From positions 62,001 to 126,000 of the forward strand of contig JAJYLQ010000001.1 in the NCBI GenBank assembly GCA_021787595.1: 64,000 nt of DNA. Direction: 5' to 3'. A program made the position numbers and the translations under genes. The notes under the pieces are model-generated. The model saw only the letters and a list, made by a program, of their open reading frames with translations, searched no databases and was not told where the DNA came from. This document shows positions 22,220 to 39,424 of the stretch, in pieces (position 1 is the first letter of the stretch; each line of letters starts with the position of its first letter). The stretch comes from Chloroflexota bacterium (GTDB lineage Bacteria > Chloroflexota > Anaerolineae > Anaerolineales > Villigracilaceae).

Positions 22220-22240
22220 TACAGCCGTAACAAAATTAGA

Positions 22241-22329
22241 CGAACGGGGAGTCCCGCGAAGCGGGACTGAGAGGAGCGAGCCGCGCTCGACCCGCATTAC
22301 CTGATCCGGATTATGCCGGCGGAGGGAAT
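22241..22329 (+). promoter_or_regulatory. TPP riboswitch (THI element)
   Basis: The aptamer shows the conserved thi-box features in order: ACGGGGAGTCC, CTGAGAGGAG, CGACCCGC, ATTACCTGATCCGGATTATGCC (read as separate conserved blocks) and GGCGGAGGGA. It senses thiamine pyrophosphate. CGGCGGAGG at 22317-22325 is complementary over nine bases to CCTCCGCCG at 22351-22359 in the terminator, so the 3' strand of the aptamer can serve as antiterminator when TPP is absent. The downstream genes thiN, thiB, thiP and thiQ fit this ligand. Confidence 0.95.
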
Positions 22330-22345
22330 ATAAGATTTAATTTCA

Positions 22346-24190: not shown

Positions 24191-25921
24191 ATGAATTCGA
24201 TGATTTCTCATCACGATGGCACAAAGACGCAAAGAAGATCAAATCTTCGCGCCCTTGTGCCATCATGGTTGAATCGTCCGCTGCTCTGGTTCTTTCCTCT
24301 TTCCTTTCTTCTCGTTCTTTTCTTCTATCCGTTTTTTCGCATTCTCGCCTATAGCTTTAACGTCAGCACTTTAACGACAGATAATCTTAACTTTGCAATT
24401 TCTGTTTTGTTTTTTACTTTTTACCAGGCAGTTCTCTCGACTCTTCTCACGCTTCTCATCGGCCTGCCGTCCGCGTATCTTTTTGCGCGATTTGATTTTC
24501 CCGGCAAATCATTATTGCGCGCGCTGACGGCCGTCCCGTTCATGCTGCCGACGGTGGTTGTGGCTGCGGGTTTCAGCGCGCTGCTCGGAGCGCGCGGCTG
24601 GATCAATCTGACGCTGATGAATTCATTCGGATTATCCGCGCCGCCGATTCAATTCGTCGGGACGCTCGGCGCGATTCTGCTGGCGCACGTTTTTTACAAC
24701 ACAACGATTGTGACGCGCGTGGTCGGCAACGCGCTGTATCATCTCGACCCGAAACTGGAGCAGGCCGCGCGTTCGCTCGGCGCGAGCAGTCGGCGCGTGT
24801 GGTGGAACGTCACTCTGCCTTTGCTTCGTCCTTCCATACTGGCGGCCTCATTATTGGTTTTTTTGTTCGACTTCACCAGCTTTGGCGTGATCCTTTTGCT
24901 GGGCGGACCGAGGTTTTCGACATTGGAAGTCGCGATCTATACCCAGGCTTTGCAATTTTTGAATTTGCCGCTGGCGGCGCTGCTTGCATTCATTCAATTG
25001 TTTTGCACGCTGGTCTTTTCGATTCTGTACACGCGTGTCGTCGAACGTTCTGCTGTCCAGACCGCGCCGCGTTCTGCGGAAAGCAATGTTCGTAAAGCAA
25101 AAACGCCGAATGAAAAATTTTTTATCATCGCGCTTTGCCTTTTGCTCTTTGCGCTTTTTATCTTGCCCATGTTTGCGCTGCCGCTTCGATCCGTCTCGCG
25201 CCTCGACGCGGACCGCGCCCAGCTTGGCCCCATCCAAACCGGCCTCACGATGGACTATTACAGCGCGTTGTTCGTCAATGTGCGCGGCTCGATCTTTTAT
25301 GTCCCGCCGTTCGATGCCGCGCTCAATTCGCTGCTCTATGCAAGTGCGACCATCGTTCTTTCGCTCCTGCTTGGATTTCCCGCCGCGTCGGCGCTGGCAA
25401 GGCCGGGCCGCCTCGAAAAGATTCTCGATCCGATTCTGATTCTTCCATTGGGCGCGTCGGCGGTTACGCTCGGACTCGGCTTCATTATTTCTTTTGGCCG
25501 CTTGCTGACGGTTCCATGGTTGGTTCCATTGGCTCATACGCTGGTAGCCTTGCCGTTTGTGATTCGCACGCTTCAACCCGCGCTCGCTTCCATCCCAGAC
25601 CGGTTGCGTCAAGCCGCGGCCTCGCTGGGCGCGTCGCCTTTTCGCGTGTGGCGAAATGTGGATTGGCCCATTCTTCGCCGCGCCACGCTTTCCGCCGCGA
25701 CGTTCGCGTTCACGATTTCGCTCGGCGAATTCGGCGCAACGTCGTTGCTCACACGCCCCGACGATCCAACCATCCCGATTGCGATCTATCGTTTTCTGTC
25801 CCAGCCCGGCGGTTTGAATTATGGTCAGGCGATGGCGATGGCGACGATCTTGATGGCGCTCACGACCGCCGGAATTTTTGTCATAGAGAAAATGCGTTTG
25901 CCCGGCGCGGGAGAATTCTAA
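24191..25921 (+). CDS. thiP: Thiamine ABC transporter permease
   Basis: This 576-residue membrane protein has two fused permease domains of six helices each, the ThiP/iron-type (AfuB) architecture. Each carries an EAA-type loop: EQAARSLGASSRRVWWNV at about 190 and RQAAASLGASPFRVWRNV at about 477. The first 24 residues (SHHDGTKTQRR and following) are encoded by a repeat resembling the 37245 element, and no Shine-Dalgarno is seen. The native start may therefore be a later codon such as the TTG before NRPLLWFFPL. It works with ThiB and ThiQ in thiamine import. Confidence 0.92.
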   Translation: MNSMISHHDGTKTQRRSNLRALVPSWLNRPLLWFFPLSFLLVLFFYPFFRILAYSFNVSTLTTDNLNFAISVLFFTFYQAVLSTLLTLLIGLPSAYLFARFDFPGKSLLRALTAVPFMLPTVVVAAGFSALLGARGWINLTLMNSFGLSAPPIQFVGTLGAILLAHVFYNTTIVTRVVGNALYHLDPKLEQAARSLGASSRRVWWNVTLPLLRPSILAASLLVFLFDFTSFGVILLLGGPRFSTLEVAIYTQALQFLNLPLAALLAFIQLFCTLVFSILYTRVVERSAVQTAPRSAESNVRKAKTPNEKFFIIALCLLLFALFILPMFALPLRSVSRLDADRAQLGPIQTGLTMDYYSALFVNVRGSIFYVPPFDAALNSLLYASATIVLSLLLGFPAASALARPGRLEKILDPILILPLGASAVTLGLGFIISFGRLLTVPWLVPLAHTLVALPFVIRTLQPALASIPDRLRQAAASLGASPFRVWRNVDWPILRRATLSAATFAFTISLGEFGATSLLTRPDDPTIPIAIYRFLSQPGGLNYGQAMAMATILMALTTAGIFVIEKMRLPGAGEF

Positions 25922-29213: not shown

Positions 29214-29317
29214 GAAACGCAGGTAGTAAGTATGTACTTGTTTGTTACTTTCAGAGATTCGAGACGATGTAATTCTATTTGGGAGAACAGTTATGAATGT
29301 CAGTTCGGGATAAATGC

Positions 29318-29432
29318 GTTATCGCCCTGAGCGGAGTGGCACTGAAGGCGCCACGAAGTCGAAGGGCAGATTCGATGCGGAACTCTACGCTTCGACTGTG
29401 GCCCCATGGCCTCCGCTCAGCGCGAAGATAAC
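29318..29432. repeat. Compound palindromic repeat (CCCTGAGCGGAG / GTCGAAGGGC)
   Basis: Outer arms GTTATC and GATAAC frame an inner repeat CCCTGAGCGGAGTGGC ... GCCACGAAGTCGAAGGG and its partner GCTTCGACTGTGGCC ... CCGCTCAG. It is nearly identical in core to 56254-56295. Confidence 0.85.
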
Positions 29433-29469
29433 ATTTCTTTTATCCCTACTTGAGTCATGAGTTAAACCA

Positions 29470-29495
29470 GGGTGCCGTCCAAATGGACGGCACCC
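29470..29495 (-). terminator. Perfect 11-bp hairpin downstream of the 18-codon ORF
   Basis: GGGTGCCGTCC at 29470-29480 pairs with GGACGGCACCC at 29485-29495 around a four-base loop. On the minus strand it is followed by CTGGTTTAAC, a weak U-run, and lies 22 bases after the stop of the small ORF. Confidence 0.55.
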
Positions 29496-29517
29496 GTAGC
29501 GCGCTGCGGCAATCCGC

Positions 29518-29574
29518 TTACTTGAGGAGGGATGCCGCAGCGCTGAGTCTGATACTACTATCCATGTTGGACAT
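29518..29574 (-). CDS. Probable 18-residue small protein or leader peptide
   Basis: The ORF encodes MSNMDSSIRLSAAASLLK. The support is its setting: a consensus promoter 62 bases upstream (29636-29664), the strong Shine-Dalgarno AAAGGAGGAGGTG directly before the ATG at 29574, and a hairpin after the stop. GAGGAGGTGATG over the ribosome site can pair with CATCCCTCCTC at the ORF's 3' end (29524-29534): seven pairs, one bulged base, four pairs. That would hide both the Shine-Dalgarno and the start codon, so translation may be self-limiting or regulated. I know no homologue. It could equally be the coding part of a regulatory RNA of about 160 bases. Confidence 0.5.
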   Translation of the reverse strand: MSNMDSSIRLSAAASLLK

Positions 29575-29635
29575 CACCTCCTCCTTTCTATAGGATGGCG
29601 ATTCAAATTGTGATCCCCGCTCGAATGATGGCAGG

Positions 29636-29664
29636 AGTATCGCATACCTTTAATCGGATGTCAA
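29636..29664 (-). promoter_or_regulatory. Consensus promoter of the small ORF transcript
   Basis: On the minus strand, -35 TTGACA is at 29659-29664, the spacer is exactly 17 bases, and -10 GATACT is at 29636-29641. Transcription is predicted to start near 29629, leaving a leader of about 55 bases. Confidence 0.65.
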
Positions 29665-39351: not shown

Positions 39352-39424
39352 TGCCCCCATGGAGATTCGAACTCCAGTTTAAGCCTTGAGAGGGCTTCGT
39401 CCTGGGCCACTAGACGATGGGGGC
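39352..39424 (-). tRNA. tRNA-Glu (anticodon CTC)
   Basis: The minus strand folds as a 73-base tRNA. Acceptor arms GCCCCCA and TGGGGGC are perfectly paired, the anticodon stem AAGCC/GGCTT has loop CTCTCAA (anticodon CTC, reading GAG), and the T-arm TGGAG-TTCGAAT-CTCCA is canonical. Discriminator base A at 39352. The CCA end is not encoded. Confidence 0.95.

Follow-up and report, generated by a model that had tools for sequence, protein, structure and literature searches.

Features of the locus

The window, i.e., the whole 64,000-nucleotide stretch of DNA analysed, carries an apparently autonomous unit on the minus strand at 29464-29664, with a gene length of approximately 150 nt. Sequence reading and a promoter scan revealed a −35 hexamer TTGACA (29664-29659), followed after a spacer of 17 nt by an extended −10 element TG-C-GATACT (29636-29644, with GATACT at 29641-29636). 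The inferred start site lies about 7 nt past the −10 element, which places the Shine-Dalgarno (SD) sequence about 42 nt and the first ATG 55 nt downstream. The leader contains an element GCCATCCT (29592-29599), which, according to an RNAalifold helix, is able to pair with the SD and thus to form a hairpin, P1, as an alternative lock. The extended SD, AAAGGAGGAGGTG, was read at 29587-29575. Two ATG codons, both in frame, are found in this region. The longer form of the open reading frame starts with the first ATG at 29574 and has 18 codons (29518-29574), and the mini-ORF from the second ATG, which is the likely start, occupies 29518-29565 in a conserved frame, with TAA at 29520-29518 and MDSSIRLSAAASLLK as the predicted peptide.

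A 10–11-bp stem S2, GCGCTGCGGC(A)/(T)GCCGCAGCGC (29543-29534 with 29510-29501), straddles the stop codon. Its 5′ arm (29534-29543) lies within the ORF and its 3′ arm (29501-29510) past the stop codon; both were recognized by pair changes on both sides. The bases complementary to the SD sit in the S2 loop. This anti-SD, ATCCCTCCTC (29524-29533), is directly 3′ of the S2 5′ arm, and the pairing analysis assigned it to strand 2 of a putative pseudoknot helix S1, strand 1 being formed by the SD together with the first ATG (29572-29587). In the window, S1 would consist of GAGGAGG/CCTCCTC and GATG/CATC with one bulged U between them. The last feature of the unit is a terminator-like hairpin of 11 bp (29470-29495) with the loop ATTT followed by TGGTTT. 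The 170-nt RNA had a fold z-score of −6.0, and none of 200 shuffled sequences was equally stable.

All of the elements named in a preliminary description of this DNA were present in the minus-strand sequence: the promoter TTGACA-17-GATACT, the strong SD, the 18-codon ORF, the 11-pair hairpin, and the pairing between the SD and the ORF. Its leader of about 55 bases fits the distance from the inferred start site to the first ATG. The open frame of 18 codons does exist; its start, however, is probably the second ATG, which leaves 15 codons. The main stem S2 was absent from that description.

Just downstream of the unit, at 29300-29430 on the minus strand, an imperfect inverted repeat with the arms GCTGAGCGGAG and CTCCGCTCAG was noticed by eye; it may be a dispersed repeat of the source genome. 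Elsewhere, the window contains a TPP riboswitch (22235-22344, plus strand; Rfam RF00059), an ORF of an ABC-transporter-like permease, named from its sequence (24191-25921), and a tRNA-Glu (CTC) gene (39352-39424, minus strand).

Distribution in Chloroflexota and beyond

A BLAST-type search matched the element in 42 of 61 genomes; among those of good quality, the matches numbered 35 of 50. A covariance model built from 30 homologues (A1/R1) found it in 104 of the 120 source-family genomes, including 72 of the 78 good-quality genomes and 23 of the 26 genera. Since the fold z-score of −6.0 is accompanied by these matches in 42/61 and 104/120 genomes, the element stands above chance. At the class level, the same model matched 149 of 298 genomes (96 of 190 of good quality), with a single match in each of the 149. 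A second site was detected in 3 of the 104 matched genomes of the family (G003, G870, and, partially, G823), and four further genomes were matched on both strands at one site. The two copies in G870 (C79 and C71) are both strong.

A second covariance model, A2/R2, was built from 62 diverse members and applied to the phylum. It matched 72 of 400 genomes, 26 of them outside the class and more weakly, with E-values of 5e-6 to 9e-4, which are rough owing to a short calibration. Seventeen of the 26 outside-class loci were retrieved; all 17, as well as three class members, had an ORF of 14–23 codons beginning 8–9 nt after the SD. Judged by eye, L128, L137, and L140 were the least similar to the rest.

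Scanning named genomes for the pattern yielded 98 stretches. Among the 80 listed, 78 belonged to Chloroflexota by title; the matches included Anaerolinea thermolimosa, Pelolinea submarina, and Levilinea saccharolytica. The remaining two were one Bdellovibrionaceae MAG and Bacterium HR29. In the phylum of the genome with the Bdellovibrionaceae title (G704, locus L180), 8 of 97 genomes were matched at E ≤ 0.05 vs. approximately five that chance alone would give. On visual inspection, L240, L243, L244, L246, L248, and L249 resemble the element, and L245 and L247 do not. The six similar loci have mini-ORFs of the type AAGGAGGTG(A/G)TG, and L244 additionally carries the complement ATGCGCATCACC; by E-value, several of these matches are within the chance expectation. 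Tentatively, this kind of element may extend beyond Chloroflexota.

Against Rfam 15, no family reached the gathering score over the element in the window, and a search with the element alone at E ≤ 10 gave nothing credible; low-threshold matches, e.g., to SNORD124, were chance-like and were rejected. No family fell on the element in 18 homologous loci either: the hits to LSU rRNA (L133) and to the SAM riboswitch (L211) were both away from it. A phage origin was considered and dismissed, as the phage collection gave no match. No description of the element was found among the literature matches listed.

Conservation of the mini-ORF

Stem coordinates were obtained for 91 homologues from the class. 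Three of them were dropped before counting, namely L089 and L104, which have a different stem, and L096, which has an early stop inside the 5′ arm. According to the family codes, the 88 counted homologues span 33 families. In all 88, a frame that begins 7–11 nt downstream of GGAGG runs across the whole S2 5′ arm and reaches its stop codon no later than the 3′ arm, vs. 9/88 for frame +1 and 0/88 for frame +2. The last frame is an unfair control because the conserved TAGTAG (AGTAGT) itself closes it. The ORF start was taken as whichever gave the longest frame at the set spacing, which biases the count mildly, and the homologues are related to one another. Independently of the choice of start, a frame of 13–22 codons was present in 79 of the 80 listed pattern hits vs. 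17/80 in frame +1; these hits come partly from the same organisms as the 88 homologues, and the search pattern itself forces the TAG in frame +2.

The ORF has 15–20 codons across the 88 homologues, and 15 in the window if counted from the second ATG. The first ATG or GTG overlaps the SD and is unusable (out of frame or blocked) in 12/88, so the second ATG (29565) is probably the start. The 3′ arm follows the stop codon at a distance of 1–11 nt in 72/88. Judged by sequence only, in 88 of the 91 homologues the ORF extends over the 5′ arm of S2 as well as the anti-SD, and its translation would compete with the hairpins.

The motif ATGGATAGTAGT (29552-29565 in the window, and in homologues) contains tandem TAG stops in the +2 frame. 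They could serve as a catch for misframed ribosomes or could be a by-product of the conserved AGUAGU. In three homologues (L009:1562-1693, L011:1458-1590, and L015:204-335), an insertion of approximately 25 nt lies between the stop codon and the 3′ arm; an extra hairpin is possible there by eye, and the frame and both arms are intact.

The codons point to a constraint on the nucleotides. Serine codons before the stem were AGT in 146 of 175 cases (82/105 in the distant loci alone). The background for AGT was approximately 8%: 77 of 927 serine codons when the long ORFs of the window were counted, and 701 of 8272 for ORFs in the flanks. Both backgrounds may include shadow ORFs. Cysteine codons were TGT in 21/21 cases (18/18 in the distant loci alone). 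The nucleotides are therefore constrained beyond the peptide alone. In L081 and L120, the open frame is kept, but the stem and the anti-SD are read in another frame, giving different peptide ends, and outside-class loci often end in GEAR-like or other C-termini. The peptide pattern MDSSxxxSAVAS varies rather little among the Anaerolineae, and a peptide of this kind may matter in itself. We read these data as suggesting that selection acts on the translation of the stretch, with the peptide in second place. A type I toxin was also considered and rejected: by inspection, the peptides (for example, MDSSIRLSAAASLLK) are short, with a mostly polar composition, and not hydrophobic and membrane-spanning.

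Stem S2 and the proposed pseudoknot helix S1

Stem S2 showed changes on both sides at 3 of 10 pairs in alignment A1 and at 7 of 10 in A3. The latter comprises 45 of 56 distant loci, including six rows in which the 3′ arm was split by the aligner; the bulged type (L064, L065, L068, L076, and L108), near-copies (L074, L075, and L094), and odd loci (L089, L096, and L104) were left out. On A3, 97.3% and 100% of the cells were paired in the two halves of S2.

The corresponding value for S1 on A3 was 94.1%, with changes on both sides at one of nine pairs (6 cells); at this pair, A-U is replaced by G-C in 6 of 45 loci and a G-U pair is kept in 5 of 45. Such changes are few in S1 because its SD side hardly varies. 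For S1 and S2 together, 51 cells on A3 were changed on both sides vs. 10.5 in shuffles, and slid controls gave 7 or fewer. S1 adjoins the S2 arm in 86/88 homologues if one bulge is allowed and up to two arm bases are counted. Without arm bases, at least eight pairs can be formed in 87/88 vs. 27.6% of shuffled loops, the mean being 9.4 vs. 6.9 pairs. S1 and S2 can thus be arranged as a predicted spacerless H-type pseudoknot hiding the start region, of which S1 is the least firm part.

Outside the group of the window, the SD is typically AAGGAGGTGATGC or near it, and the bases directly 3′ of the 5′ arm are the SD complement or close to it, e.g., GCATCACCTCC. Over the 88 homologues, the loop starts with ATCACCTCC in 11, with ATCACCTC- in 30, and with ATCCCTCCT, as in the window, in 35. 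The 16S rRNA gene of the source genome ends with GGATCACCTCCTTTCTAGAG; the 16S tail, which reads GGATCACCTCCTTTC there, is identical to the first two loop forms. The group of the window is changed on both sides of S1, GAGGAGGTGATG being combined with CATCCCTCCTC. An SD with GTGGTG is matched by ACT or ACC loops in L069, L083, L113, and L119, and a G-U pair is retained in five more loci with GTGGTG. Pairing of the SD with the ORF was also found in other letters, i.e., GGAGGTGATGCGAC with GTCGCATCACCTCC in L139, from another family of the same class, and GGTGATGCCC with GGGCATCACT in L135, from outside the class. In the predicted fold of L122, the start region alone pairs with the ORF.

The mean energy of pairing between the SD and the loop of the same locus was −20.7 kcal/mol vs. 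−19.6 kcal/mol for swapped loops (89 loci), a difference reached in 0/5000 permutations and found likewise for the 54 distant loci; relatedness among the loci was left uncorrected in the permutation tests. In the median case, the SD of a locus is paired more strongly by 27 of the 88 loops taken from other loci than by the loop of that locus. A mini-hairpin within the loop, which looks conserved by eye and is of at least 4 bp in 49/88 vs. 27.8 expected by shuffling, is a weak feature and was kept out of the claim.

Hairpin P1, formed by GCCATCCT and the SD, was predicted as a helix by RNAalifold in both A1 and A2, and 94.6% of its cells were paired on A3. The SD side does not vary, which leaves no room for covariation, and the P1 helix is thus putative. 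The S1 duplex (loop part) had a mean energy of −15.4 kcal/mol vs. −8.2 kcal/mol for P1 and was the stronger of the two in 88/88, before the cost of closing the pseudoknot. On average, it was weaker than the duplex of the SD with the 16S tail (−20.1 kcal/mol). Minimum-energy folds calculated free of pseudoknots contained P1 and S2 in most of those run. P1 also hides the SD and fits nowhere in a simple two-state picture.

Promoter, terminator, and gene neighbourhood

A promoter score of at least 9 out of 12 was obtained upstream of 73 of the 87 homologues with enough upstream DNA vs. 6.6 expected from shuffles. The case for the promoter rests on this conservation because the scan of the window gave two sites vs. 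1.0 in shuffles, a count not above chance alone. A terminator-like hairpin was present in 52/87 homologues by a relaxed criterion applied without a shuffled control. The strict terminator scan of the window detected none, and the hairpin is trailed by TGGTTTAA only.

The cluster that includes the divergent DUF4153 gene of the window was found in 14 of 21 contexts within the family, and a phosphofructokinase-like cluster, named from its sequence, in 9 of 21. No near-universal neighbour cluster was detected among 111 loci, in some of which the flanks are short. A same-strand downstream AIR-synthase-like gene, also named from its sequence, occurs in 11 of the 111 loci, its ORF beginning, at the farthest start, 95–252 nt after the start of the element. 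These loci are L073, L076, L080, L083, L086, L088, L093, L098, L106, L110, and L114. Overall, the element looks like a stand-alone unit.

Proposed mechanism and alternative explanations

These data support a previously undescribed small gene with a structured RNA in Chloroflexota, for which we propose the name self-locking mini-gene RNA. The preliminary description had suspected an undescribed small gene at this position, which is supported. It had also looked to close relatives for a conserved frame and compensatory changes in the stem: both were found, and the relatives keep the ORF and the stem. The comparison of S1 and S2 also supports the suggestion that the ribosome site masks itself and would need to be opened by translation.

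We interpret the element as a translation-gated RNA switch, i.e., a mini-mRNA that would be at the same time a structured RNA with a lock made of S1 and S2; the probability of this reading is, in our estimate, about 0.48. The promoter of the unit would produce a mini-mRNA of approximately 150 nt, in which the SD/anti-SD helix S1 and the stem S2 would close the start region. We infer that the folded and the translated states are mutually exclusive. Once the SD is captured by a 30S subunit, translation would proceed across S2 and the anti-SD and terminate just short of the 3′ arm, so that the RNA would stay accessible to a following ribosome; with less frequent initiation, the RNA would shut. 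What is conserved would then be that this stretch is translated, and less so the peptide. Such an RNA would report the supply of ribosomes or the initiation capacity, or couple its own stability or activity to it, and its output might be the peptide, an anti-SD loop set free, or a change in RNA stability. A more speculative version, which we consider doubtful, is a gauge of free ribosomes distributed phylum-wide and possibly wider: a mini-mRNA whose near-perfect SD is accompanied by the 16S anti-SD, copied or in variant form, and in which a 30S subunit and the built-in anti-SD mimic would compete for the SD, the outcome would decide the fate of the RNA, and the peptide would be a by-product.

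If the 15–20-residue peptide MDSSxxxSAVASLLK were itself the functional product, the pseudoknot would merely set its dose. The frame and the stop kept in 88/91, the start-to-stem distance, which shifts in multiples of three in 86/88, and MDSS-like starts found outside the class as well would all agree with a micropeptide, but the AGT bias among serine codons (146/175) reveals constraint at the nucleotide level, the SAVAS part overlaps the stem and the anti-SD, and the C-termini are different in L081 and L120 and GEAR-like or otherwise different outside the class. We consider this explanation rather unlikely; the same codon bias, frame change, and differing C-termini weaken the peptide signal proposed in the preliminary description. 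Less probable still is a trans-acting sRNA, whose anti-SD loop, freed when P1 holds the SD, would block the SDs of other mRNAs while the ORF would act as a timer. A loop beginning with ATCACCTC, like the 16S tail, in 30/88, the frequent P1 and S2 folds with a largely free loop among the pseudoknot-free minima, and a structured RNA with its own promoter fit such a role. Against it, the loop tends to change together with its own SD (GAGGAGG/CCTCCTC; some GTGGTG with ACC or ACT), as pairing in cis predicts, and S1 has the more favourable energy compared with P1 when loop costs are left aside.

A ligand- or protein-gated switch of the orphan-riboswitch or ribosomal-protein-operator type, controlling the mini-ORF alone, would account for the AGTAGT kept at the nucleotide level in the linker between the SD and S2, and the Escherichia coli rpsO operator likewise takes the form of a pseudoknot where the ribosome binds (PMC8470358). 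No single metabolic or ribosomal gene is, however, associated with the element in the neighbourhoods examined, and we find this explanation improbable. A leader peptide, or attenuator, of a downstream operon is highly improbable. The same-strand AIR-synthase-like ORF downstream in 11/111 loci would suit it, but the examined flanks of the other loci have no such gene, and an attenuator leader is unlikely because no downstream gene is common to all. The leader peptide of the preliminary description is not supported on the same point, and a hairpin closes the unit.

The unit is kept by most of a large family (72 of 78 good-quality genomes) and in many families of the phylum, and because it is so widely kept, it is likely to be useful, yet it has no Rfam match and is too short for the usual gene finders. 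Joint conservation of frame and structure can reveal very short ORFs of this kind. A ribosome-binding site, a relative of the ribosomal anti-SD, and a mini-ORF are combined here in one predicted interlocking fold, which makes RNA-based sensing of ribosome supply directly testable.

Comparison with known systems

In attenuation leader peptides, translation of a mini-ORF competes with hairpin formation, and the same competition would take place here. Unlike them, the element has no downstream gene common to all loci and no antiterminator recognizable by eye; the neighbours differ, and a fixed downstream regulated operon was not found. SgrS/SgrT and RNAIII are dual-function (coding) bacterial sRNAs. 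Like these, the element appears as a short autonomous structured transcript carrying a small ORF, and the promoter (73/87) and 3′ hairpin (52/87, relaxed rule) of a dual-function sRNA are both present. The difference is that the ORF here holds a stem arm and an anti-SD that could lock its own SD; a relation in sequence was checked by Rfam alone, which gave no match.

The alpha-r14 sRNAs are linked to the 'cuckoo' family. In PMC10746234, they are described as having three hairpins, each with a CCUCCUCCC loop, and, as in the element, an anti-SD sequence is displayed in an unpaired hairpin region. Unlike in that description, there is one loop here, with CATCCCTCCTC or GCATCACCTC- and variants, its own SD is a strong partner, and three CCUCCUCCC hairpins are not found in the element.

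The downstream-peptide motif, or type 2 glutamine riboswitch, of cyanobacteria is a structure in the 5′ UTR (PMC2864571 and PMC6316151). Both that motif and the element tie a conserved RNA structure to a short conserved ORF; in the element, by contrast, the structure is built from the ORF itself. In PMC2864571, the Chloroflexi-1 motif is listed for Chloroflexus aggregans only.

For the rpsO operator of ribosomal protein S15, PMC8470358 describes a pseudoknot in the initiation region that blocks initiation. A candidate pseudoknot over the translation initiation region is predicted here, where S2 covaries clearly and S1 is consistent and above shuffled loops, with an SD side that is hardly variable. 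Unlike the rpsO operator, the element involves no ribosomal protein gene, and its pseudoknot would be made from a 15–20-codon ORF and span the stop codon of that ORF. The element thus resembles known SD-hiding pseudoknots and coding sRNAs, and differs from them in a lock that would be built from its own ORF.
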